Part shown: piece after piece, positions 263 to 53,661 of the stretch
Layout of the letters: every line of letters starts with the position of its first letter
How positions within the stretch are numbered: the first letter of the stretch is position 1
From: Adineta ricciae
Taxonomy: Eukaryota > Rotifera > Eurotatoria > Adinetida > Adinetidae
Assembly (NCBI GenBank): GCA_905250025.1
Contig: CAJNOJ010000157.1
Location: forward strand, 124,001-188,000
DNA length: 64,000 bases
Direction of reading: 5' to 3'
Notes under the pieces: model-generated
What the model was told of the DNA's origin: nothing
Seen by the model: only the letters and a program-made list of their open reading frames with translations
The model's database searches: none
Translations under genes and position numbers: made by a program

Positions 263-1943
263 ATGAGAGATAAAAATATCATTTTCAAGATGTCTCTATG
301 TCTCTTGAATTCGTTGCCTGTTGAATTAATTCATCATCTCTTGGAGTATTTTCATTCATATGAAATAATTCAATCGTTTTTCAATGTGAATGAGCATCTA
401 AATCGTATCGTGATTAATTATGATCGTTATATCTGGGATTTTCGTGGTATACTCAAATGTCAATTTGATCTTGTGTGTCAATTTTTACAACCAAACCGAG
501 TGATTTATTTGAGATTATGCGATGATGATGAAACACCTGAACAATGTCATATTTTCTTCTCTCGTTTTCATATCGAACAATTTGTCAATCTTCGATCTTT
601 GGAAATCATTTCACATAGGAAAAACATCGAACCATATTTGACTGATCTTTCAAAACTTTCACGTTTATCTTCAATTATTTTATCATTAACGCATCGAATA
701 ACTTCGATAGTTAGTATTCAAAGAGTATTTCCTCAACTACATCGATTAATCATAGATTCGCCTGAATTTCTGAATATAAAAATGCCTGAACTACGTTATT
801 TAAAGTTAACAAAATATGAACGAGCACCGTTTTCATATCTGTCCAGTAATCTGATGCCTAATCTTCATTCATTAGATATAACACTTTCATTATCATCAAT
901 TCTTTCGACAATGAATTCAGATTTGATTTGGTTTCAAATAAAACGTTTATTTCTTAAAACAACAGGTGAGTCAACGTCCATTTTCACAAATGAATTTTCT
1001 CATTATTTAATTAGATTCGGATATTTCATTTTCCATGTCACAATTTTTATGTAAACTGATCAATTTAAAACATCTCGAAATTGATGTTCAAAAGGCAACA
1101 AATGTTCCTGATGGTCAACAATGGGAATCACTTGTTTCACATTTGATTCGATTTGATTTTCGATTTACCATTTATAATCAAAAACTAGATAATGATACTT
1201 TAGAAAAATATCTCAAATCATTTTGTTCATCATTTTGGTTGGAAGAAAAACGTTGGTTCGTTGGCTATTACAAAAATCTATCTTCAGATTCATTTTTTAC
1301 ACTACCACGTTTTGTTCCAACAAGTATCGACACATCTTCTGTTTATCAACCATTATCTACATCATCAAATTTCTCATTTGATCAATATATTCGTTGTATT
1401 ACTATTTTACAATCTTTTTCTTATTACGATCGTTTCAACGAATTAACATCGTTAATTTTTGGAGGAAAATTTGATTTTAATAGTAAATCACAATTCTTCC
1501 TAAAAGATCTTTTACAACGATTACCTCATGTTCATTCACTTTCTTTGCAAAATTCACAATCAACTTTGTATATTCTAAACAATTCTATATTAAATCAAAT
1601 TCGAAGTTTAACGATACGTCATACTTCTTGTCGATCTCAATTTCAATTGTCAATTGAACCGAAGAAATGGTGCGATGTTTTTCCAAGAGTTGAGCGTTTA
1701 TTTGTTTCAATCGATATGACAAGAGATATGTTTATTTTCATTGATGAATTGAAATATTTATCAATTGCAACATTTGAAATAAATGATTGGGGCAAATCTC
1801 GAGATTGGTCAAATGAATCAACACGAGAATGGATTAGAAAATCGAGTCAACGTTTAAGAAAAGATCCAAATTTTACACTTTTATATTCAAATGAAGAAAT
1901 TCATTTCTGGATGAATGAACAACAAGTAAATGATTTTCATTGA
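263..1943 (+). CDS. F-box/LRR-like protein (paralog 1)
   Basis: Two exons, 263-965 and 1015-1943, are joined by a 49-bp intron (966-1014, GTGAGT...TTAG); the split codon gives Asp and the frame stays open to TGA at 1941-1943, for about 543 residues. The N-terminus has an F-box-like core (LNSLPVELIHHLLEYF), and the rest is a string of leucine/isoleucine-rich segments with recurrent SLxI and LxxLxI patterns, as in F-box proteins with degenerate LRRs. The expected role is substrate recognition in an SCF ubiquitin ligase; this is family knowledge, and the substrate is unknown. Translation may begin at 290 rather than 263, since the paralog at 2173 aligns from that Met. No signal peptide or membrane segment is seen. 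The tandem neighbour downstream is a clear but diverged paralog. Confidence 0.75.
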
Positions 1944-2172
1944 AAGAAACAAAAAGAAAGTTTCTTTTGTAGATAATTGAATATCAATCTTCAAGAATTT
2001 CATGGTGTTCTCTTCTATGAATCAATGATTTCATTGAACATAGTTCAACGACGACATCTGTAAAATGAATGATATTGTTTCATTGGTAGAGAACAAATGT
2101 GACGCTTGTCTTCATTTCGAAAATAAATAAAAATTATTATTTGAATATTGAGGAAGAATTCTGTTTAATCAA

Positions 2173-4014
2173 ATGTCTTCTCAATCTTGTCTTTTAAATT
2201 TATTTCCTGTTGAAATAATTCATTTGATATTTGATTATTTATCAACTTGTGATATTTTACATGGATTTGTAAATCAAAGTTTATATTTGGATTCAATTGT
2301 TTTCAATTATAATTTTTATCGAATTAATTTTCGTTCGATATTAAAAACCGATTTTGATCTCATATGTGAACAAATTCCAGCAAAAAACATCATTTCATTG
2401 GTGTTATCTGATGAAATGGACACACCTGGACAATCGAATTTATTTTTTTCATTAAGAAAACTTGAAGATTTTCATGTTTCTTTACGATCTTTGACACTTT
2501 ATAATCTTAATCTTCAATCAATTGAATTGATTTTGAATCAATTAGATCAATTCAATAATTTATCATCGTTAACTATCATAAATGATACATCAATATCATT
2601 TGAAACATACCAATATCATTTGTTTCGATTTGTTCGATTGAAAATCTCATGTGAATGTTTTTTTCATAATTTAATGAATTTACCTCGACTTAAATATTTA
2701 ACCATAACAAATCCATGTACATTTCATCAATTAAATTCTATTTTATCATATTCACCAAATTTAAATTCTTTAAATCTCTCTCTCGAACATGAAAATGGAA
2801 TTCATATCCAACAATCAATTTGTAATTTAACTCAATTAATTGTAAATATGACACGTAAGTTAATTGAAATCATTCGAATCTGATTTATTGAATTTGTATA
2901 TCTTTGAAAGAATGTCCAATGAATATGACTTATATGAAAGACTTTTTAAATTGGTTTCCAAATTTGAAATTTCTTGAAATTGAATGTCGAAGTGATTTGG
3001 ATCTATGTGATGGATATGAATGGGAAAAATTTCTTTCGAATCAAATTTCAAATCTGAAAATATTTCATTTTAAATTTCAATTACGATCAACAATAATTAT
3101 CAATACAAATGGAATTCAAAATATTCTTCGTTCATATTCCAGTTCTTATTGGTTAAATGAAAAACAATGGTTTATTGCTATTGAATGGAATCGACGATTA
3201 GTTTATTCAATTCCACGATATTTATGTGAATCAGCTGATTCGGATTTTCGACGTCCATTGAATTGTACAATCAAAGATGAATCGATCTTTTATAATCATA
3301 TCAATGCACTTGCAATTTGGGGAGAATCAAATGATTATTTTCCCAATGTCAAAGAACTGTGGCTTGTTGATGATCCATTAGTAATTAATTTAGAATCAAT
3401 GATCAATTTTAATCAAATTGAACGTTTAGTATTCTCATCAAAACTTCATTTATCCATTGACACTTTATTTAATCTTATCAAGAAAATGAAGAATTTGTCT
3501 TCAATACAATTTTATCATCTTCCATCGTCATTTAATGAATACAAACAAAATGTTTCTTTTGAACAAATTCGTTCAATTGAATTTTCTCGAGAAATTAAAT
3601 CGATTTCATTGATACAAATTTTAAACGAGATTTTTCCTCGAATTCAACGTTTAACAATGAAAATAAATTCGTTTGACGAAATAGAAAAGATTTTCCAAAC
3701 GTTTTCATCGTCATTATCAATTGTCTGTTTTCATTGTGATACGTCAACCATTTCAACAACAAATGAAAATTTATTCCAAAAGATTTTCAATCATTCGAAT
3801 TTCACTTTCTCAATTCAATCAAATTCCATTCATTTTTGGATTGGCTCGAAAAATATCACCGAAAAAGTTCGTTTCTTCTTCTTCTTTTCGAGAATATCAT
3901 TTTATCAACTTCTCTTTATAGATATTAAATCAACAAGTAAAAGAGAAGAAAAAAAGAAAACTATTCCAGTGCTTCTCATGGTGTTCATCAAAAAAGTATC
4001 AAATTCAACAATAA
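2173..4014 (+). CDS. F-box/LRR-like protein (paralog 2)
   Basis: Three exons: 2173-2854, 2911-3866 and 3922-4014, about 576 residues. The N-terminus (LLNLFPVEIIHLIFDYLST) is F-box-like and aligns with the gene at 263; both share the C-terminal block around HFW and a late QQV. Intron 1 (2855-2910) has a GTAAGT donor. Intron 2 (3867-3921) has the weak donor GTTCGT, and without splicing the frame would run on to 4034 with a Phe-rich tail. The truncated copy at 7497 supports splicing: its matching segment is 5 bp shorter, yet both copies reach the same final residues (QIQQ, stop) only if that segment is removed. Likely an SCF adaptor by family, substrate unknown. Confidence 0.7.
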
Positions 4015-37611: not shown

Positions 37612-38952
37612 TTTCCAATTAATCTGAAATAATTAATCATCAGTCTATATTACTTTTTGAAAATGACTTTTTCTTCATTATCATGTCGAAATGAAAATCA
37701 GAAACTTCAATTTCAAAAAAGGGATCCTTTTCTCTTTTCAAACAATAAGAATTGAAATTTACTTGTAACTGCAAGTCCAATAATCTTTCTTCAACGAAAT
37801 ACGTACAAATAAGAAGTCGAGTCTAGCGACATCTATATTTTTATTTTTTAATAAAAACAACGAGGATATTTTGAAAACAAAAATTTTCAACTAAAAATTC
37901 ACATTAAATTATTGACTAATATTAAATCTTAATGAATCATAATCGACCAATTAAAGAAAGATCATGAATTCGTGTTATGTCCGAGATATTGCTTCGTGCA
38001 ATCAATATCAAACGTTCTTCTCATCACATAGTTTCAATCACTTTGTTGTAAATTTCTATGACAAAGTCAAACTGAGCTGAACAAATGGTTATTTAATTCA
38101 ATGAATGTGATTATCATTGTTGGAGAAATAGATAAAATTTTATAGAATATATTTCATCAAAACTGGATTCAGATTCAGAGTATGAAACTTTTCGTGTTCA
38201 AGTGTTTGTTCAGGAAATGGTTTTAATAGAGTTCTATGAGTGATGAACAATTTCTTGAAAAAAGATTTTCTCCAAGCAATTTCGTTACATCCTACTCCGA
38301 TGTCATCATTAAATGAAGAAAAATCTTTTATGTAAAATAAACTTTTCGTTTGACAAAGATCATTGGAGAAGAAGATTTATTTGTATTTAGAATTCTTTAT
38401 CAATGTAATTATTTGTTTGTTATCATAAGAAAATATTCCAATCGTTTCTACTCATCGAAAACCTTTCTTTTATTATCATAATTAATCTAAATGTCGTGTA
38501 AATAATTGCTGATTAATCAAGAACTATTTGCGCACAGTTAGATTTTGATTGAATGAAAACAATTCAAAATCGAGTGACAAAAAAACATCTTCATCTTACT
38601 TTCTTTTCATTTAATAGATATGATTAACTGAGTTCGATCGTCTAAACAATTGATTTTTGTTATTTTCATTGTTATGCAAGACAAATCCAACAGTTTTCTT
38701 TAGTCAAAATCAATGACATAGATGAACAAAATTCATTATTTACTCTCAACATCTCTATTCTTTTCAATAATTTCTATCATCGCTCTCCGTTTATCTTCAT
38801 AATTCAAACAAGAAAAATCATCAAAGAAGAAGAAACTTTGACATTTTCTGTGCAGAATTGTTTTGTAATCATAAATGCACTTAACTTTCAAATATTGTCC
38901 TAGTAGCTAATATATCGGATAAAATGAGAAAAATATGAATAAATAATTAATA
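37612..38952 (+). other. Intergenic region upstream of WDR75
   Basis: AT-rich. It includes the presumed WDR75 promoter side. No gene, tandem repeat or RNA gene is supported. Confidence 0.45.
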
Positions 38953-39486
38953 CGGTGCGACCTTAAGGAGCATCGTATTATTGAGTTTCTTCGCGTCTTT
39001 TTATACTCTTTCTTTCTAGACAAGCATCCAAAGTCCATTTTTAGTGACGCGGTGATCAAAGGATCGGAGCGTCGTTGGACTGTAGGATAAACGCTGTCGA
39101 GCAGTTAGCTAGGTGAAGATGAGATATTTTTTCTCAGAATTTCATAAACTATTGTCGTTTGCCCAAAATAAAACACAGACTCTGCGGTAAAACTGTGGCG
39201 AACATCTCTCAAGCAGTAGAGATAATTACTAGATGGGCTGTCAGGNCCAAAAGGATAGTTTGTTTGTATTTTATGATTAGTTGATAAAACGATGATTTAA
39301 TGCAGCGACATCATTATACAAGGTTTTACGCGAATCTTTTATTTAATTTTCTCCTATAAAAAGCTCTTTGTATTAGCCGAAAAATATTTTCGACGATCTC
39401 AGGAACTATCGACTTGTACACTAACTGGAAAATAAATGTTCAATAGCATACACTTCCTCCTATGTTCCCCAAGACTCGTCGCACCG
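38953..39486. mobile_element. Short TIR element with TA duplication (mariner-like)
   Basis: The ends are perfect inverted copies of CGGTGCGAC, each bordered by TA (TACGGTGCGAC...GTCGCACCGTA); with the flanking bases the match is 13 bp. A TA dinucleotide duplication fits Tc1/mariner-type insertion, but the inverted repeats are short. The body, 534 bp with an N at 39246, has no transposase frame. Non-autonomous if real. Confidence 0.5.
39246..39246. other. Assembly join (single N)
   Basis: The N lies inside the short TIR element, so the true length of that element is unknown. Confidence 0.7.
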
Positions 39487-40047
39487 TATTCTGCATTTAG
39501 GCGAAGCATGAATGCCGTCTAGTTAATTATAGAAATGTAATAAAGAAAGTAAAAGTTTTGTTAGTTGAGATCTTACTGAATTTTGTTTCTTTTCAATCTG
39601 AAATTCACTTTGTTGATTAGATTTTCTCGCATGATAACGTATAGTTCGACTGTTGTTTTCCTTTGACTGAAGTTGAATTTGAAAAGTAAGAAAAGAACCA
39701 ACGTAAACAATAAATATTGATGTCTTTATTAACACAAAGATGATTACGTGTTGAACAATATTTCAAAGAATTCATAAGCAAATAGAAGCTTTTCATTTGA
39801 GAAAGTGTCGAACAGGTAGAAATCAAGGATATACGTAATTAATATAATGAGAGTGAACAAATGAAAACTTTTGTTTTTCTATGTTAGAAAACAAAGGTCG
39901 GTTAAGACGTTGATACTTACCTGTTTGATATTCATTTCAAGTTGAATTTCTCTGTAAAAACGATCTAATTACAATTCAATGGAACTCATCGTGTCAAGAA
40001 AATTTTTCCTTAAATTCTCAATTTTATTTGTATATAAATTATTCCAG
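39487..40047 (-). other. Stretch upstream of the polycystin gene
   Basis: The minus strand has short open frames (for example a basic peptide QLQSKENNSRTIRYHARK near 39660) separated by intron-like gaps. They may be exon remnants, but no family is recognised. The last 70 bp extend the polycystin frame upstream to an ATG at 39979. Confidence 0.25.
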
Positions 40048-43000
40048 ATGTATTCATTGTCTTTTTGGAATATCTTTTTATTGTTATCGATTATCACACA
40101 TTCATCAGGTCTGTACTTTACAAACAACGTTTTTTTATTTTGTAAATCTTTATTCAGCTCTTTCGTATAATCAACCGAAATTTTGTCCAAATGCAACGTG
40201 GAATACAACTGCAATAACTTTTGCAAGTTCAGGAACAGTTGGTGTTAGTCCTTATGGTCTTCATATCGATGGCAATAATACCATCTACGTTGCTAATCGA
40301 CAAAAAAATATGATCAATGTATGGAATGAAGGAAGTAACATACCTACCAGCAATATTTCAGGAACATTGAACTCTCCAGCAAGTGTCTTTGCTTTGGATT
40401 TGAATAATATTTATATTGATAATGGATTAACAAACTATCGAATTGATAAATGGTCAACGAGCTCATTGACTATGAACCCTCAAATGTATGTCTGTGCATC
40501 GTGTTATGGAATATTTATTGATATTAATAATAATCTTTATTGTTCGTTATATCTTAAACACAAAGTTATTTCAAGATCATTAATAACACGTTTAAGTATA
40601 TGGAATACTGTTGCGGGAACAGGAACAGCTGGAACGACAGCATTGACTCTCTATTATCCTCGTGGTATTTTCGTTGATAGATATCTTAATCTGTATGTGG
40701 CCGATAGTATTAACAATCGAATTCAAAAATTTCTATATAATCAAGTAACGGGAATAACAGTCGCAGGTGCTACAGCATCAGGAACTATTACACTTTTATA
40801 TCCTTCGGATGTTATTCTTGATGGAAATGATTATCTCTTTATTGTTGATAGTGGTTACAATCGGATCGTTGGATCGGGATTATATGGATTCTATTGTATA
40901 GCTGGATGTACAAAAGTTGCTGGTGTAACAGCGGTTCTTTTATATAACCCGTTATCTCTTCGTTTTGATAGTTATGGAAATATTTATGTTACCGATCAAA
41001 TTAATGATAGAATACAAAAATTTGTTCTAATAACACAATTATGCAGTAAGAAATATTTCTCTTATTTTCATCTAGCTCCTTTAAAATTTCTTTAGATAGT
41101 ACCAATCCAACAACTACTACTGCAACAGGTATTGAGTAGACTTCTTACTTATCATAAATATCTTTCGATTCTTTCAGTTACCGCGTCTACAAGTATCGTT
41201 GGCTCAACTACTGTATCATTGTCGCTCAATGGTACGTTGAAATAAAATGTATCGTTACATATCCTACATTGTTTTTCATTTCTTTTCTTTCAGCCATATC
41301 ATATAATTTGCCAAGATTTAGGACTAATGATATATGGAATGGTAATGGAATAACATTTGCAGATAGTTCAATTGTTGGTACTACACCAAATGGGATCTTT
41401 ATCAGCAATAACAACAATGTTTATGTCACTAATCGTGCCAATAGTCGAGTATGTGTTTGGGCGGGATTGTCTGGTGCACCTACAATATTTACGAATGGAT
41501 TATATTTACCTTACAGTATTTTTGTTACGATTAATGATGATATTTATGTTGATAATGGATATACAAACAATCGTGTCGATAAATGGACAGCAAATGGGAC
41601 AGTTTATGGTACCGTCATGACTGTCACAGATGCGTGTTATGGTCTTTTCATTGATATTATGAATAATCTCTATTGTTCTATGAATAATGATGATCAAGTC
41701 ATTATGAAATCATTAAATAGCAATTCAAGTATGTGGATAGTCGTTGCAGGAACAGATTGTACTACAACAGCTTCGTCGAATACTCTTCAAAATCCTCGTG
41801 GAATATTTGTTGATACGAATCTTAATTTATATGTAGCTGACTGTGGAAACGATCGAATACAACAATTTTTATCGCAACAATTGAGTGGAATAACAGTGGC
41901 GGGAAGTGCAACAACAATAACACTTGATTGTCCTAGTGGAATTGTTCTTGATGGTGATGGATATCTTTTCATCGTAGATACTAATAATCATCGAATTGTG
42001 GCATCCAGACCTGGAAATATCTTTCAATGTATAGTCGGATGTTCGAGTATTGCTGGTTCAACTTCCAGTCAATTATATTCTCCATCGACAATGAGTTTTG
42101 ATAGTTATGGAAACATTTATGTTGTCGATAGTAGTAATAATCGAATACAAAAGTTTAGTTTAACTTCGAATACTACCTATCGTAAGTAATTATATGAAAA
42201 ACTTTAGTTGCATCTTTTTATAGTTAAATAATAAGTTTTCATATGTTTCAGCTTATTCGTTCAATCAACCGACTCTGTGTCCAACTGTAACATGGTCTAC
42301 AAATGGAACGACTTTTGCCAATCAATCAATGATTGGAACAAGTCCTTTTGGTATATTTATTAGCATAAATAATACGGTGTATGCGGGTGATCGAACAAAT
42401 GCTCGTATTCAAATTTGGTATGAAGGAAGTCTTCTACCAAATAGAAATATTTCTTTTGATATGAGTAATACTATGTTTGCTGTTGCAACAGCTTCCGGTG
42501 ATGTGTATGTTGACAATGGTTATGTTAATTTTCGAGTCGATTATTGGCCAGTAGGTAAAACAACGAGTACACCAATTCTAACAACAAATGGTCGTTGTTT
42601 TACGATGTTTATTGATACTTCAAATGCACTTTATTGTTCATTATGGTTATGGCATCGTGTAACGAAGAAATGGTTAAGTGATAACGGAACAACACCGATT
42701 CTTATCGCTGGCACAGGTGCTGCAGGATCAACTGCATATCAACTTTATTATCCTTTGGGTATTTTTGTTGATATTAGTTTTAATTTATACGTTTGTGATT
42801 GTAACAATGATCGAATCCAACAATTTCAATTAGGTCAAACAAATGCTGTGACAGTAGTCGGAAATGGAGCACCGGGTACGATCACATTAAGTTGTCCACA
42901 GGCAGTTGCTCTCGACACAAATGGATACATTTTACTCACTGATCAAAGTAATCGTCTTATAATGTCAGGATCATATGGTTTTCGATGTTTATTGGGATGT

Positions 43001-46000
43001 TCACAAACTGCTGGAAGTTCATCTAGTCAATTTAATTTACCAGGCACATTTAGTTTCGATAGTTATGGAAATTTATATGTTGTCGATCAAAATAATAATC
43101 GAATACAAAAGTTTTTATTAACATCGAATACATGCAGTGAGTAATAAAACTGGTTTTTTTTCTTTTGTCATATAGTTTCGAACTTGTCTTGATGATCTTG
43201 TTTTTAGATGCAACAGTAAAACAGAAAAGTTTTTTATCTGCTCAATTATGTTATTCAAATGGTTCGACTTTACTTGCACGTGATACCATTGGTTCAACAC
43301 CTTATGCCGTTTTTATCGATAGTTTTAACACTCTCTATGTGGCTAGTCTGACCAATAACAATGTTTTGATTTTGACTGAGGAAAGTACAACACCTATTAT
43401 CAGTTTATCAGGCACTTTTAGTCGACCATATAGTATTTTTGTTTCAATAACTGGTGATATTTATGTCGATAATGGTTATGCAAATAGTCGAGTGGATAAA
43501 ATTATCAATAGTAGTCTATCAAATGTGGTTTCAGTTATGAATATTCCTGGCAGTTGTTATGGTTTGTTTCTCGATATTAACAGTTACCTTTACTGTTCTC
43601 TACGAGATTTTCATCGTGTTATTAAAATATTGGCTGATGGTACTATGAATACGACGATTGTTGTAGCAGGAAATGGTTCAGCTGGTGCATCAGCATATAT
43701 GTTAAATTCACCACAAGGAATTTATGTTGATAACAGTTTGAACTTGTATGTTGCAGATTGTAAAAATAATCGAATTCAGAAATTCTTACCTGGAATACTC
43801 AATGGAACAACTCTGGCTGACAATTCAACAATACCAGCAGTAACACTTAATTGTCCAACAGGAATTGTTATGGATACTAATGGTTATGTATTTATTGTTG
43901 ATAGTAATAATCATCGAATTCTTGGATTATACATTTATGAAGTTCGATGTATAATTGGATGTTCTGGCTCGAGTGGTTCTTCATCAAGTACATTATCATT
44001 TCCACAAAGTATCGCATTTGACAGTTACGGAAATATTTATGTTGCCGATCGAAATAATAGTCGAATTCAAAAATTTGGTTATGTCCTAAGCGATTGTCGT
44101 AAGTAACTCTTTCTTATGGCCACGCTTTTTAAGGAACTTCTATTTTCAACAATCCTTGACTATTTGGATGAATCACAGTCAAATTCTATCTTTCGAATAA
44201 AAGAAATCTTTTAAGAAGTCCGAGATATTTGTCCTCTGAAGTTGCATAGTTCTCTTGGATAAAGACAAGAAATAATTGAGCTTTTTGTGTTTTAGCAACA
44301 ACAACTGTTATTTCAACCACATCGTCTTCTACAGTATCTACAACCTCCACAAGTTCTTCGTCCACATCGAGTTCCACATCCTCAACAACCTCATCAAGCT
44401 CCACATCGTCCACAAGTTCGTCATCATCTACATCGTCTACAGCCTCCACTTCTTCCACAACTGATACAAGTTCTTCGTCATCATCGAGTTCCACAACATC
44501 CACAACCTCTTCGTCTTCGTCAACATCTTCATCAAGCTCCACATCATCCACCACCTCTACGACGTCCACAACCTCTTCGTCTTCGTCAACATCTTCATCA
44601 AGCACCACATCATCCACAAGTTCGACATCATCTACGTTGTCTACAACCTCCACTTCTTCCACAACTGATACAAGTTCTTCGTCATCATCGAGTTCCACAA
44701 CATCCACAACTTCTACGACGTCCACAACCTCTTCGTCTTCGTCAACATTTTCATCAAGCTCCACATCATCCACAAGTTTGACAACATTCATAACTTCTAC
44801 ATCCTCCATAATCTCGTTGCCTTCATCAAATTCCACATCATCCACTTCTTCGACCACTTCCACAACGGATTCGACGTTAACGTCGTCTACCACATCTGTA
44901 ACGAGCACAAGTTCAACATTATCGACGTCAGTATCACTCTCAACTAGCTCGACTTCATCTACAACCAGCACAACCATGAGCACATTAGAAACAACACAAA
45001 CACCAGCCATAAATGGAAGTAATAAATTGCAAACCTTTTTCGAAATAAATGAATAACGACATTCATTATTTAGGTTGTTATCCTCCGTCTATCACTCTTA
45101 TTCCTGGCCAATCATCGTTATCATCTCCATTAGTATACCGTCGAAGTCAAGACTTCTCCATATCTTCCGTACTGAAACTTGCATGTGCAAGTTCCCTTTC
45201 AACTACGATACAATGGTCAATAAAAAATTGTACTGTAATTACTTGTGTAACTCCGATAACTTTGAGTACGAAAATTTCCACAACATTAAGTGAAATTTAT
45301 ATTCCATCACGAACTTTGGCACTTGGTGTTTATCAATTCACAATAAATGTTAAAATGACAAAATCACCTCAATATCGATCTTCATCAGTTGCATATATTC
45401 GAGTAACTCCATCGGGTATTACAGCAAATCTTGTTGAGTTAGGAACGTCAATGATAACACGAGGTGATAAACAAGATCTTTTCTTCGATCCAGGAACATA
45501 TTCTGTCGATCCCGATGAAGATTCATTCGACGCATCAGTAAGTATTCAGTCATTCTTCTCAATGACACTTTACAAATCTTTTTCTATTTCATACAGAAAT
45601 GGAAATATGTTTATTATTGTCGAATTTATCCTCGTTATCAATTTCCTAATCTTCAAGGTATCTTTTTACCAATCGAAGATCTTCGAGTTGATCCTGTCAA
45701 TCCATCATGTTTATCAGGTAATGGAACACAATTAATCTTTGGAAATTCAAGTTCATCTCCAAAATCATCTTTGACAATTCGTGCTGGTTCACTTCAATCA
45801 AATGAAATTTATCAATTTATGGTTTACATGGAAAATCGAAAAAATTCATCTGTTCAAGCGACTGGTTATGTTCTTGTTACAGTCGAAGTGACTCGTCCAC
45901 AACTGATCATCATCGGGTAAATCAAACCCTTGAAGAAATTCTTAATCAGACCATTTTTCTTTTACTACTTAGTTGTGTAATCTCAACAATGTGTATTCCT

Positions 46001-49000
46001 AATCTGGAATTTCAATTACTCAATCCAACGACTCAAGTTGCTTTGACCAGTTTTTGTACTGGAATGTGTGGCGATCTTCAAAATATCACATGGAATGTCT
46101 ATGAAGGATCAACTAATTCATCAGCAAATTCGACAGTTATATGGAAATTATTTCCTTCATCAATCTCTTACGAAAACATTTGGTTTTTCGGGACATATAT
46201 AAACAATTTTACTGCTGATAATCGATTGTTTATTAATAATCCTCACGTCCAATATTGGCGATTCGAAGCTGTGTATTCATTTCTAAATGCAACAAGTTCA
46301 AGTGCATTGAATTTTGTCATGAATCAATCTCCTGTCAATGGTTCTTGTGTGATTTATCCACAGAATGGAACAACAAGTACTTGGTTTAATGTATCATGTC
46401 CAAATTGGGCTGATGAAGATGAAGTAAAAGATTATTCTCTATATGGTAATATTTGATAAGAATGAAAAATTCATTGAAAATGTTTTTCTTTTAGCTTGGA
46501 CAACGGATATTTCACAAAAAGTCATCGTTGTTTATTCACCGGAATCGATATTTCAAGCTCGACTTCCACCAGGTGATAATCAAACTTCATTATTGAACAT
46601 TGTTATTCATATTAGAGATACACTTGATTGTGTTACAATAGTCAACATGACTCAAATTTCGGTTTTCATAAATCAAAATGAAATCAATGATTTGCAAAAT
46701 TTAGCAAATCTCTCGAATAATAATCCAATTGTTCAATTATTGTGGAGTGGAAATCAAAATATTGTTGATCAAATTGTCAATTCAGTTTCACAAACACTGA
46801 ATCAAATGAATACTGAAAGTATCGATAACGCCATTTCAAGTAAAATACTCTCAATAAGACATTCTTTTCCAATGAAACGAATTTCCTCCTTTAGATGGTC
46901 TTGTCGCAACAGAAATCTCTGTTTCATCATTAGAAAGTACTTCAACTCCAAAAGTAAGAATATTTTTATCTAAAAGGATCTACGTGTGTTTACATAGACC
47001 ATCTCAACATCATCAAATAATTCGTTTTCGAGTGGATATGAAAAAGATTTGAATAATCAAGCGAATGTTCGAGATTATCTCGTTAATTTCTACGCAAATC
47101 TTCTTATCACAACATCCAATAGTATCATTTTACAAGCATCGTCTTTAGCTCAATTAACTCAAGCAACTAATCAATTAACACGAAATACTTTACAAACTGC
47201 ATCAGATCGATGTTATCAATTGACCATTGCTTTATATTCATTGAAGACAAAAATCGCTTTTGAAGATATGCAAACAGCCGCAACTCAATTAATTCAATGT
47301 GCATCGAATGTGTTAACTGTAAGATTGACGAAAAGTGATGATAATTCGTGTGATGATATGTTGTAGGGAATTAATGGAGTTCTGCAACAACGAATGTTGA
47401 TACTCGATTCAGATTATTCTCGAGCAAATTCTTTATCAGATGATTATAATACAGATGTCGAATCTGAATGGTCAAATTTGAATTTATTTGCTGATGGAAA
47501 TGATTTTTCTACTGAAACGATTGAAAAGAATCGAAATATTTATTATCAAAAACAATTAGCAAATGAAATCGTCACACAAACGAATGAAATCATATCTTTA
47601 TTAACATCTTCATTGAATATTCATATAAATCTCGGGCAAAGTTTAACAATAAATACTTCAAGTACTTTCATGTCATTACAAACCATATCAAGCGATTCAT
47701 TATCAAATAAAACTATCATTCAACCCGGTAATGGTCAATTTCAAATTCCATCAAATATCACAGCAAACAATTCTTCAATTTTTCTTCGAGTAACACGGAT
47801 TTTCTTTTGTATTAAACAAAAAACTCTTTTCTTTTATTTGTGTTTAGTCAATGATGACTCCACTTTCATCACTTGGTTCAAGTCAATCTCAATCCAATAC
47901 AAATCTTTCTCGATCAATTTCATTATCACTTTTTGATAAAAATGGAATTGAAATTTCCGTTGAAACCAATATGATCGATCCCATTCGAATGATCGTACCA
48001 CGTGATCCAACTATTGTTCTTCCAACGATGTATTTTCAAAATGTAACATCAATCAATTCAACTGATTATCATTATATCTTTCATTTCCATTATATAAACA
48101 TTACAAATTCTCTTCCAATTTCAGTTCATTTCGAAATTCATCCATTGAATTCAACACTTTCATATTTGTTTATCTATAGATTCGATCAGACGCCATTATT
48201 GAACAGTTCGATTAACCTTATCGATGGATGGACAATCTTTTGTCCTTCGCGTAAGTTTGAAATTTCATTGGACAATCAAGTTTTCTTTCGTTTTCATCTT
48301 AGATTTAACGAATGAAAGTCTTTATACATATTTTATTGATAACCAACAAACATCAAGTCATCAATCGTTAATCTTCGGTTTTCGAGAATTGAATTCAACA
48401 GAAAATATTGAATATTGTTCGAATAATTCTATTGGAAATATTCTTCCAATTACAAACGAATTGTTTCATTTTACATCAAATTATGAACTTCGTATTTACA
48501 CATCGGGTTGTTATTATCTCGATTCAACTAACAATTGGAAATCCGATGGATTACGCGTGAGTTTCCTCCTCTAATATTTCTTGTTTACGTATTTATCAAA
48601 TTTCTTCAGGTTGGATCATTGACAAATCATTATGAGACGGAATGTTTTTCAACACATTTAACAACATTCGCAGGTGGTTTTATTGTTTTACCCGCACCAA
48701 TTAATTGGAATTATGTTTTTGCAAATGCAGATTTTCTGAAAAACAAAACTGTTTACATCACTGTCATATCTGTGACAACAATTTACATCGTCTTACTGAT
48801 CCTGGCACGTTTTCAAGATCTTTCTAATTTGAAAAAGGTAGGAGTTACACCCTTGTTGGATAATCATGTATCCGATCGATATTATTATCAAATCATTGTG
48901 TTGACTGGTCATCGTCAAAATGCGGCAACGAAATCGAAAGTAAAGTCAAATTTGAGATTGAAAATCGAGAAAATCTTCTCATTTAGGTTTATTTCGTTTT

Positions 49001-52000
49001 ATCGGGTGATGATGATCAGACACATGTTCGAACATTTGTTGATCCTCATCGAGAAATCTTTCAACGTGGTGGAATCGATGCATTTATCATGTCAGTTCCC
49101 AAATCATTAGGACCCTTAAATTTCATTCGTATTTGGCATGACAATTCTGGTCCAGGTTCATCGGCATCGTGGTTTTTGAAATATATCATCGTTCGAGATT
49201 TACAAACGATGGAGAAATTTCATTTTATTTCTCAAAAATGGTTTGCTGTGGAAAAAGAAGATGGACGTATCGAACGTCTCTTACCCGTCGCCAATGATTC
49301 GGAAAAACAACAATTTTCGTATTTATTAACCAAAAAAACTTATCATAGCGTGTCCGATAAACATCTCTGGTTTTCGATCTTTTCACGTCCACCAGCAGCA
49401 AAATTCACATGTGTTCAACGATGTACATCTTGTTTCGTTCTGCTCTTCTCTTCGATGTTATTGAATATAATGTATTACGATTTATCGAATGCAGCAAAAA
49501 CATCGAATAGCACATCAAGCTTCGATTTAGCCATTGGTCCATTACACATTACACCGGAACAAGTAAGTGTAGTTGGCATAAATGTATGAGAGATGACTTT
49601 GATTTGATAATTTGTCTCAGATTGGAATTGGTGTAATGGTGGAAGTTTTGACGTTAATTCCAAGTATTTTAATTGTTGAATTTTTTCGACGTATTCGATC
49701 GCGTCAACAACTGTCGCCATTACGTCAAGCGTTGAATCAAATCAATCCAAATACACCGACGTTCGTACAAATCATTTTCTCACCTTCACTAAAAAGTCTT
49801 CTCTCGTTCATTTTAGTGTAACTTCAAAACAGAAACGTCGAACGCATTTGACATTTCCATGGTGGTGTTTATTCATTGCTTATGCTCTTTCAATTCTAAT
49901 TATTCTTGTTTCGATCTTCTTCATCATTGTTCGAGGAATTGAATTCGGTGATGATAAAGTGAAAAGATGGTTAACATCGGTTCTCACGGCATTTTTCTCT
50001 TCGATCTTATTCACTCAACCTATCAAAGTAGAGTTTATCTTTATCTATGCAAGTTGCATTGTCAGATTTTCTTCCAGATTGTTGTCTTCGCTATATTTTT
50101 CATTTGTTTCTTTCGAAATACGAATGATGATGCAGAAACGAATGAATATATCGATGAATATCAAATGAATTTCAATGAAGATGACGAAGATTATCTCCAA
50201 TCGATCAAAGTTTGATTTGTCCATCTGTTGTTTTTCTAATGAAAATGTCTTTTAGAATTATTCGTTAGTAAATGTTCAAACGCGACAACGTGTTAATCGT
50301 TTAACTGAAGGTGAAGTTGTACATGCTCGTGATCAACGCGTAAAAGAAATTCAAATGTGGTCAATTATTCGTGAATTCGTTATTTACTTCGTCTTTTTCT
50401 TCTTAATCTGTTCGATAACATTTGCGAGTCGCGAACAGAATAGTTTTCTTCAAGTTCAACATTTACGAAAATATTTTCTGAATACTCGTCAATCTACGAA
50501 TGATTATACTCAGGTTTGCTTTGATTTTTTCAAAGTTTTCTACATAAAATCTTGTCGATTTAGATCACAACTGTCACTCAATTTTGGTTCTGGTCACAAA
50601 ATAGTTTTATTTTAAATCTTCGTTCTCAACAATGGTACAACAATGACATACCGAAGTATTTAAATGGATATATCAATGATAAATCAAATCGATTGATTGG
50701 ATGGGCAACAATGAGACAATTACGTGTCAAACCATCAACGTGTTCTGATCAACGAATTATTGAAATTTGTGAAAAAGATTATAATTTCTTCAATGAAGAT
50801 AAACAATCCTATTCACCAGGATGGACAAATCAAAGTCTCGATGAAACTTACAGTTCATCAATCAAGAATTCATTTCAATATCGCACAAGTGATGAATTAG
50901 ATACGTATGTATTCGTTGGACAACATGGAACATATAGTGGAAGTGGATATGTTTATGAATTTCGTGGTCGATTCACAGATCTTCAAAGTAATGTGTCAAC
51001 ACTTCATGAACTTCAATGGATTGATAAACAAACAAGAGCAATTCTTATTCAAATAACTTTATATAATCCGAATGTTCAATTATTCACATCTGTGACCTTA
51101 CTTATCGAAGTTTTATCAACAGGTGAACTTATTCCAACTTCTTATTTTCAACCATTAAACTTTTCCAGTGAGTTCAATTTTCTCTAGTTGAAAATTATTC
51201 CTTCGAATTGTGTTTCTAGCATTTACATCAATGTTTCAATTGATTTGTACAATTATTTACATGGGTTTCATAATTTATTTTATGTTTATACAAATACGCG
51301 TATTTCTTCGATTGAAACGGAAATATTTTCAACAATTTTGGTCATTAATTGAATTAGGAATCATTGTTTGTTCATGGACAAGTTTAGCAATTTATATTTG
51401 GCGTTTCAAAGAAGCTCGTCGTATCAGTTCATTATTTGAACAAACAAATGGTTATGTTAATATTAATTTACAATTAGCTGCATATGTTGATAATCTTCTC
51501 ACTTATCTTCTTGGCTTTTCTTGTTTTTTCAGTATGGTGAAATTTCTTCAATTACTTCGTTTTGATTCTCGTTTATTATTATTCATTCGAACACTTCAAT
51601 GTGCACAAAAAGAATTGATCTCATTTTTGATGATGTTCAGCATTGTTTATATGTCATTTGTTTGTTTATTTTATTTCTTATTCGTTTCAAATATGTCATC
51701 GTGTTCAAGTTTATTATCCACGACACAAATGTTATTCGAAATGACTTTGATGAAGTTTGATACATCGGAATTGATCGAAGCGGATGCGTTTCTTGGTCCA
51801 TTTGTATTCGCTATTTTCATGTTCTTAGTTGTTTTCGTTTGTTTAAGTATGTTCCTTTCAATTATCAACGAAAGTTTTCGTAAAGCACGAGAAAATCCAG
51901 TGGAGAATTCGGAAATCTTAGAATTTATTATGAGAAGATTTATACGTTGGTCAGGTAAATGAATTCTTCTTGAAATCGAGAAGATTATGAATTGTTTATT

Positions 52001-52244
52001 GTTTAAGGTTTGAAACGATTAAGTATGGCAACAATTTATGCTCAAAGAGATACACAAATGCGTTCGCAATATTGTGATCCAATCGAAGGGTTTCCTGACA
52101 AAGTCGATCAAATGCTCGTCAAACTCGATAAAGTATGTGGAACGTATTCGATCTATTGTAAAACGAAAGTTTCCTTATATTTAGTTGTATATTGACCAGA
52201 AATCTGAACTTCGAAAATTGGATAAACTTGAATCTTTGAACTAA
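40048..52244 (+). CDS. Polycystin-1-like protein with four NHL-repeat units
   Basis: A multi-exon gene of roughly 3,500 residues (estimate). Domains in order: signal peptide MYSLSFWNIFLLLSII (exon 40048-40108); four NHL units of about 290 residues (40158-44099); Ser/Thr mucin stalk (44297-45010); N-glycosylated REJ module with NQSPVNGSCVIYP...WFNVSCPNWADEDE; GPS with cleavage motif THLTTFAGG (near 48650); PLAT domain (VYFVLSGDDDQTHVRTF, IRIWHDNSG); multiple membrane helices; TOP/polycystin domain and the six-helix cation channel (50350-51960); terminal stop TAA 52242-52244. Every junction I checked between NHL, mucin and REJ parts keeps frame with phase-1 introns, so it reads as one gene. PKD1-family proteins form receptor-channel complexes with PKD2 on cilia or sperm membrane. 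The NHL ectodomain replaces the LRR/PKD ectodomain of vertebrate polycystin-1. An upstream in-frame ATG at 39979 is possible. Confidence 0.85.
40158..44099 (+). repeat. Four tandem NHL-repeat units within the polycystin gene
   Basis: Units lie at about 40158-41046, 41295-42180, 42251-43136 and 43208-44099, each essentially one exon with phase-1 introns on both sides. Each contains repeats of the form PxGIFVDxNLNLYVADCxNNRIQ (key residues G, DxxxNLYVAD, N-RIQ) and a closing SFDSYGNIYVVD element. Units 1 and 2 are separated by small Thr-rich exons. NHL units fold as beta-propellers and bind protein or ligand. Confidence 0.9.
44297..45010 (+). repeat. Low-complexity Ser/Thr (mucin-like) exon
   Basis: After a CA|ACAACAAC acceptor the plus strand encodes over 230 residues that are almost only Ser and Thr, with internal repeats such as TTDTSSSSSSSS. 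It splices in frame to the NHL unit upstream (C|CA) and to SCYPPSITLIPG downstream (A|GT). Probably a heavily O-glycosylated stalk. The long minus-strand Val/Asp/Glu frame here is its shadow. Confidence 0.85.
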
Positions 52245-52645
52245 TTGTTCTTCGCTATTTTTCTATTCACAAATAAATCGTTTCTTCATTATATGACACG
52301 TGAACCATTGATATTATCAAGAAAAACAAATGATTCGATATACTCGAGCGCCTTCGATTATTACTCGACTTCATTTACGTTATTTGACATTTGATGTCAA
52401 ATCTGCATATGAAACTTGAGATGAAATCACTAGTGTATTATTTCTTTTCTTTACAAGATCTTTTAACAAAAAGAAAGAAGAAGAAATGAACGGATGATGA
52501 AAGGGAAAATACGAAATATTGTTTTTTTTCTACTTGTAATTACACTAGAATTCAAAAGAGGATGAAAGGATTGAAAATATTTCTACTGTATGACTGGAGG
52601 AATGTCTTTCATTTGATGTTTAAATGGATGAATATATGTCGATTT

Positions 52646-53661
52646 TTACTTTGTTTGTGCAGCAATTTGTCTAAGTTGTTGAAGACAAGATTGTAACGCA
52701 TCTTGTTCTTGTTTCGCTGTGATTGATTTCTTAACTTCATTTGTTATCCAATTAATCATATTTGATCTTTCGAAATCTTTTCGTGCATTTTGTAAAGCGA
52801 CTTGATAATCTAATCGACGTTTAACAGCTTCATACATTTGTCTTAATCGATCACGATATGCTGTTTCAAGTGCCATACTAACGATTTCTTTTCGTGCATC
52901 ACCTAAGATTCCAATATTTTTCGCACGTTCTAATGATTCTTCATATCCATGTAACATTTTTCCAGCCATTGCTTTAGAATTCTGTACGACTGATGTGTAT
53001 CGATTAACTTCGTCTTGATGCCAACCTCGAAAAACATCACCAACCATTGGACCAATTCTAAAAGATAAACAATTGATTTTATTTTAATGAATAAAAAATG
53101 ACACCAAATAAAATAATTCTTTACTTTTTAACAACAGTCATAACAGCTGCAGCCAAAATGATATATTCAGTGAAATCATACCAAAGTACAATATATTCTT
53201 TGCTAAATCCATAAATGATTAAACCATAAAAGAACATATATGGTCCAGTAACACCAGTTTTTTCATAGAAAAATTTAAACCAAGATTCAGGTACACAATA
53301 CCAACGAACTGGATTTGGTGTTTCACGAAGTTTATATGGTGGATAATTAACTAAATCACGTTCAGGCCATTGATCGTGTGGCCATAAACGTTTGCCATTG
53401 TATTCAGTTCGCCATTGTACCGATGATAAATCTTTTATCGAATCTTCGACACGTAAAACTTTCTCATTTTTATCTTTTTCAACTAAAGATTTTCCATCTG
53501 AAAACAAATTTTAATTTAAAATGAAAATCAATGATTTAATTCTAACCTGATTTTGTTGTTGTACTTTGAAAGAATCGATTTGAGATCGATAAAGATCGAT
53601 TGATAATCAATGACGATGAAATTCCATTCGGTACAATAGGACGAATGAATTTAGTCAACAT
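52646..53661 (-). CDS. ATP5PB: Mitochondrial ATP synthase Fo subunit b
   Basis: Three exons (53661-53547, 53497-53125, 53057-52646), 299 residues. It is the peripheral-stalk subunit b of F1Fo-ATP synthase in the inner mitochondrial membrane. The N-terminus MLTKFIRPIV followed by Ser/Arg-rich sequence is a mitochondrial targeting peptide. The core matches the animal subunit: EKTGVTGPYMFFYGLIIY (vertebrate PKTGVTGPYVLGTGLILY), two hydrophobic helices, the IGPMVGDVF junction, SMALETAYRDRLRQMYEAVK and a long C-terminal coiled coil ending QLRQIAAQTK. Introns are 49 and 67 bp. Confidence 0.95.

Follow-up and report, generated by a model that had tools for sequence, protein, structure and literature searches.

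The gene lies at positions 40048-52244 on the forward (+) strand of the window, the 64,000-nucleotide stretch of Adineta ricciae DNA analyzed here. Unless stated otherwise, coordinates are window positions on that strand. Our hand-built splice model, made after reading positions 38500-52700, contains 27 exons and encodes 3551 amino acids with zero internal stops. Splice sites were picked by eye so that the frame stays open; all introns are GT-AG and measure 44-197 nt, and a few of the donors are weak (GTTCGT at exon 20, GTTTGA at exon 22 and GTTTGC at exon 23). The predicted protein consists, in order, of a signal peptide, four NHL propellers, a Ser/Thr stalk, a REJ domain, a GPS with an HL^T cleavage motif, a PLAT domain, a TOP domain and a channel. 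Pfam was run at E<=0.01 over residues 1-1233 and 1476-3551, with the stalk omitted, and the REJ coordinates were converted by hand from the model. On the opposite strand, in tail-to-tail orientation to the propeller-polycystin gene, is a gene for the mitochondrial ATP synthase b chain (52646-53083 (-); Pfam 9.7e-18). Single-N joins exist in the assembly, one of them at 39246, upstream of the gene.

Exon 1 (40048-40108) carries the start codon and a hydrophobic N-terminus, judged by eye to be a signal peptide. Each propeller is encoded by one symmetrical phase 1-1 exon: exon 2 (40158-41045; 296 residues), exon 5 (41294-42181; 296), exon 6 (42252-43136; 295) and exon 7 (43208-44098; 297), assigned from the gene model, Pfam, alignment and tree. 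Between the first two propellers, exons 3 and 4 (41096-41128 and 41178-41231) encode short Ser/Thr-rich linkers in the gene model. Every one of exons 1-8, which make up the entire added ectodomain, ends in phase 1. The propellers match the Pfam families NHL (5.4e-62) and TEN_NHL (9.9e-16). Six blade-like blocks per propeller are visible by eye in the propeller alignment; a crude motif scan counted six blades for each of three propellers and five for the remaining one, not all of them in register. The propeller profile matches the designed 'Pizza' propellers most strongly (5.4e-67), followed by TRIM71 (4.5e-41) and a teneurin-like protein (3.8e-24), and NCBIfam gave below-cut-off matches only, to the scytonemin-related ScyF and ScyD/ScyE families. 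Exon 8 (44296-45018), which comes directly after a 197-nt intron, the longest in the gene, encodes the Ser/Thr stalk, identified from the model and its composition: 241 residues, 87% serine plus threonine. The original prediction placed the end of this exon at 45008; it should be 45018, with the donor gtaata at 45019. Pfam found no LRR, WSC, lectin or PKD repeats within the residues and threshold given above, and NHL stands in their place, in agreement with the claim that the ectodomain domains of vertebrate polycystin-1 are replaced in this gene.

Downstream of the stalk, exons 9-12 encode the REJ domain (residues 1508-1988; 45172-46778; Pfam REJ 2.6e-36). The GPS motif (residues 2480-2516; 48509-48672) is weak in Pfam, with E 0.0012 and 19.7 bits against a gathering cut-off of 22.5 bits. 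The predicted intact cleavage site is nevertheless present in a motif scan as CFSTH-L^T, with HL^T at residues 2511-2513 (48655-48663). HL^T is also found in 18 of the 20 other copies that we fetched, and the segment after the cleavage point, TTFAGGFIVL, is alike in most of them. The two copies that lack it, at C245 (L070) and C453 (L071), both have a propeller upstream. The post-cleavage segment leads to TM1 (residues 2543-2561; 48751-48807; hydropathy), which is directly followed by the PLAT domain (residues 2588-2697; 48886-49262; Pfam PLAT 4.8e-17). The polycystin (TOP) domain (residues 3041-3243; 50502-51160; Pfam Polycystin_dom 2.1e-37) and the channel domain (residues 3244-3466; 51161-51881; Pfam PKD_channel 1.1e-34) are both present, in a region where the 11 transmembrane segments expected of the family were not cleanly resolved by hydropathy. 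Exons 26-27 (52008-52244) encode a cytoplasmic tail with a heptad-like end, taken by eye for a coiled coil, and a stop codon that is the same in the second copy of the gene, C255. Pfam on the spliced protein bears out the four NHL units, REJ, PLAT and the polycystin channel that had been read from the DNA. The best solved-structure match for the whole membrane region is human polycystin-1 (6a70_B), at 8.7e-59.

The channel half on its own scores about 1e-51 against PKD2L1/PKD2, 2.2e-34 against PKD1L3 and 1e-11 against polycystin-1. When only the pore segment is compared, PKD2L1/PKD2 chains score 2.4e-12 to 4.5e-8 and PKD1L3 scores E 3.4; the 20 matches listed at E<=10 include no polycystin-1 chain. 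The alignment of the channel half with PKD2L1/PKD2 continues through the pore, and S6 is uncharged. As judged by these comparisons, the pore resembles PKD2/PKD2L1 and not polycystin-1. The earlier description of a polycystin-1-type channel holds for the receptor chassis but not for the channel half, which is PKD2/PKD2L1-like and has a Lys in its filter. By sequence alignment, Lys 3424 (codon 51753-51755), in the filter LMKFD, takes the place of the Asp in the PKD2L1 filter LGDFD. The Lys recurs in 17 of the 20 other copies fetched, C255 included, and the remaining three have Asn, Gln and Gln; within this set, which is also the one compared at HL^T, propellers are demonstrated for only some copies. 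According to the available text of PMC8357825, Lys2069 of PKD1L3 faces Asp523 of three PKD2L1 subunits in a "KDDD" filter, and the channel works. Because PKD1L3 is the weaker match, both over the channel half and in the pore, the filter Lys could be convergent, and either shared ancestry or convergence with PKD1L3 would account for it. Elsewhere in the genome, PKD2-like pores with LGDFDF occur on C40 and on C126, and another place on C40 reads IGDFDF. Candidate partners for a Lys filter thus exist, in the form of PKD2-like genes with the filter Asp. A PKD2-like place at C166 reads LGIFDF, without the filter Asp.

We propose, with moderate confidence, that this one gene encodes a polycystin-1-class subunit in which the four-propeller array would form the ligand-binding end on a mucin-like stalk, and which would cleave itself and join PKD2-like subunits for cation entry. 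A less probable reading, though one that deserves weight, is a non-conducting adhesion or signaling receptor. As has been suggested for polycystin-1, it would clamp PKD2-like channels or direct their traffic, and its output would run through G proteins and the cleaved fragment. The GPS motif, the PLAT domain and the polycystin-1-like membrane chassis would all suit such a receptor, and a filter Lys is unusual in a homomeric cation pore. However, PKD1L3 with its filter Lys still makes a working channel, as far as described in PMC8357825. The alignment through the pore with PKD2L1/PKD2 and the uncharged S6 also argue against a non-conducting protein, as do the low score of the channel half against polycystin-1 and the absence of polycystin-1 from the 20 pore matches listed.

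The window gene is not a single oddity. The REJ start of the window gene matches 80 places in the 130-Mb genome, some of which may be fragments or second copies, and at least 47 of the 80 have at least one propeller upstream. This tally, which joins two propeller searches, three further NHL places and tblastn on fetched regions, is a lower bound, with 132 of 1224 and 133 of 1247 first-look propeller candidates scored. The sensor had been called unusual; it does not stand alone. The other 33 REJ places have no propeller among the matches listed. Flanking DNA was examined for 24 REJ places, with varying upstream cover, and 18 of these have a propeller upstream. The six that do not lie in pairs at C139, C121 and C105. 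At C139 a uromodulin-like D8C domain (L016 7800-8306 and L017 7606-8112; Pfam 3.5e-10, for L016) and a stalk rich in TTK replace the propellers of these REJ-polycystins. The C121 places have repeats of about 130 residues with GH2_N below the cut-off, and those at C105 have SIBA-E_N below the cut-off. Upstream of the REJ gene at C121:71427 there are four such repeats (L013 6147-8792), again with a GH2_N match below the cut-off. PLAT is found at the expected distance in 38 of the 80 REJ places, a count to be read with the many PLATs that are interrupted by an intron, and 26 of the 80 have both a propeller and PLAT. The predicted protein is a variant within the polycystin-1 class and belongs to a large modular family.

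Propellers are also found on other chassis. Among 164 propeller places in the genome, 79 lack a REJ place in the 6 kb downstream of them. We read downstream of ten hand-picked non-REJ propeller places, mostly judging by eye and taking the frames separately, not joined by splice models. Six of the ten lead into EGF repeats, one transmembrane segment and a short basic tail (C338, C470, C105, C147, C758 and C482), where EGF is above the Pfam cut-off for C338, below it for C105 and assigned by eye for the others. Two lead into a frame resembling a 7TM receptor (C459 and C968; Pfam 7tm_1 9.4e-5 for C459, below the cut-off). Two repeats of an unnamed extracellular module of about 140 residues lie between the propeller exons and the 7TM-like frame (L081 reverse strand 981-2093; L086 1585-2667). 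The last two of the ten are C429, which leads into more propellers, and C153, which is near a D8C-like frame. A tentative extension of our proposal is combinatorial recognition, in which a propeller cassette on symmetrical phase-1 exons would be dealt onto at least three chassis (self-cleaving polycystin channel subunits, EGF-single-TM proteins and 7TM receptors), so that considerably more than 100 heads might read chemical or contact cues, for example from food, microbes or self, and convert them into ion flow or other signals.

Selection was estimated from the window gene and C255: dN/dS is 0.24 for the propellers (770 codons) and 0.196 for the chassis (1630 codons). The propeller value leaves out exon 2, whose C255 match is non-orthologous; it is 0.385 with exon 2. 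Seven pairs of paralogue propellers gave dN/dS of 0.17-0.42. Since dN/dS is below 0.5 in all propeller comparisons used, there is no sign of arms-race diversification, and diversifying selection on the propellers as a whole was rejected. By these ratios, the propeller pairs compared are on average under purifying selection. Three REJ comparisons were uneven (dN/dS 0.09; 1.25, at dS 0.029 and with an unverified pairing; and 0.31) and were left out of the conclusion. At C194 (L025, L027) the propeller exons differ by dS 0.14 and the REJ starts by dS 0.69, a mismatch that suggests exon swapping or gene conversion. These data also bear on the idea that the propeller-stalk fragment is shed after GPS cleavage and acts as a soluble or coat protein, such as a glue, a mucus or a decoy, with the channel half secondary. 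The mucin-like stalk, the signal-peptide-like start and the GPS motif would fit a shed product. We nevertheless consider this improbable, as the constraint on the channel chassis is no weaker than that on the propellers and eight of the ten sampled non-REJ propeller places lead into membrane-protein frames, mostly as judged by eye.

The interval reads as one gene, as originally predicted. In the second copy, C255, which is colinear with the window gene, 19 of the 27 exons have an orthologous counterpart (5-7 and 12-27, with exons 5 and 12 partial). These 19 exons have no indel in the aligned parts, no premature stop and the normal stop in common with the window; identity is 94-95% for propeller 3 and about 95% for propeller 4. 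For exons 1-4 and 8-11 there is no such counterpart in C255, which has assembly Ns at those places, so that these exons, the stalk junction included, are without second-copy support. Elsewhere in the genome, a propeller and REJ share one uninterrupted frame at C188 (two frames), C600 and C183. The linkage also depends on strand: in the 6 kb upstream of each REJ, a propeller is present on the same strand at 41 of the 80 places and on the opposite strand at none of the 80, with about 0.3 expected, which excludes chance linkage. Counted by propeller, 85 of the 164 places have a REJ on the same strand no more than 6 kb further downstream and none has one on the opposite strand; four of the 164 follow a REJ start by 6 kb or less. 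In a tree of 46 propellers, whose bootstrap values are not fully settled, propellers 1-4 of the window gene pair in order with those of the paralogues C203 and C558. Supports are 99/84 for propeller 1 with C203 and 92/91 with C558 added, and, with both paralogues, 99/96, 96/86 and 100/99 for propellers 2, 3 and 4, respectively. This ordered grouping implies that the four-propeller array predates the split of these genes.

Two neighboring genes, one encoding a secreted NHL-mucin protein and the other a REJ-polycystin, would find room at the longest intron, just before the stalk exon, and C255 does not cover the stalk and the REJ start, where the one-gene structure is a prediction from the DNA. 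This reading is nonetheless very unlikely and was rejected: the propeller+REJ single frames in the paralogues effectively refute it, and the strand-specific linkage, the in-phase splice sites and the joint inheritance of the propeller array stand against it as well. The splice model, C255, the single-frame paralogues and the ordered propeller tree support a continuous path from propeller ectodomain to channel, and we conclude that 40048-52244 is a single predicted gene. An assembly artefact or pseudogene, which the gaps of C255 in this region and the single-N joins, including that at 39246, might suggest, has the least credibility of all and was rejected on the 3551-codon open frame, the C255 match and a dN/dS of about 0.2 on both halves.

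Returning to the channel-forming proposal, we envisage that the protein would cleave itself at the GPS, and that a ligand or a pull on the propeller array would strain or remove the N-terminal fragment. The freed stalk, TTFAGGF..., might then act on the TOP/channel part; stalk agonism is described for polycystin-1 and adhesion GPCRs in the available part of PMC9672506. One propeller subunit together with PKD2-like subunits could form a heterotetramer with a Lys-plus-three-Asp filter, and binding outside the cell would thereby become cation entry. The family may have grown by duplicating and moving phase 1-1 propeller exons, giving one chassis with many recognition heads. From the sequences compared, the best reading is that its members are subunits of heteromeric PKD2-type channels which cleave themselves and carry exchangeable heads. 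Exceptions to this explanation are the two of 20 copies without HLT and the three of 20 with Asn or Gln at the filter. Egg or sperm recognition, one of the roles first suggested, finds no support here and would be unlikely if the animal is a bdelloid, a group not known to have males. The GC content of 31% and the colinear second copy are compatible with a bdelloid; a 23-base bdelloid spliced-leader sequence gave no exact match.

We found no account of propeller-headed polycystins among the open PMC papers listed in our searches, and the architecture may exist in automatic protein annotations. For Adineta vaga, the available part of PMC3846280 remarks in one sentence that NHL proteins and 7TM receptors are expanded. 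The activation and the ligand of polycystin-1 are still debated. Dozens of polycystin-1-type subunits, many with compact heads, would be natural material for ligand finding and tests of GPS release, and chassis that differ at one filter residue would be material for pore comparison. Large receptor repertoires are known mainly for GPCRs and ionotropic receptors; the family described here would show that a TRPP-type receptor-channel subunit can also become a large, expanded repertoire.

The window propellers share their repeat type with teneurin and TRIM-NHL proteins. Teneurin crosses the membrane once and serves in adhesion, TRIM71 binds RNA in the cytosol, and to our knowledge neither carries a channel. 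With human polycystin-1 (PKD1) the window gene shares REJ, a GPS motif, TM1, PLAT, further transmembrane segments, a channel-like end and a similar post-GPS segment. It differs in having four NHL propellers and a mucin stalk, Pfam having detected neither LRR, WSC and C-type lectin domains nor PKD repeats, and in a channel half that is far closer to PKD2L1/PKD2. We know of no NHL propellers in PKD1L3. PKD1L3, in the PKD1L3/PKD2L1 channel, is likewise a subunit of the PKD1 class that combines an ordinary pore segment with a filter Lys (PMC8357825, in the part available), but it differs in the poor match of its pore segment and in having no REJ, according to the available text of PMC1934368. The same text states that the REJ domain defines the polycystin-1 (PKD1/REJ) family and counts five PKD1 genes in human and 10 REJ genes in sea urchin. 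The sea urchin SpREJ family is similar in being an expansion of REJ receptors whose ectodomains vary; most of them have a GPS and several have PLAT (PMC1934368). Its ectodomains, in contrast, are lectin, EGF, SUEL, PKD and WSC, with NHL not named in that part of the account, and its 10 genes compare with 80 REJ places here, which may include fragments and second copies.
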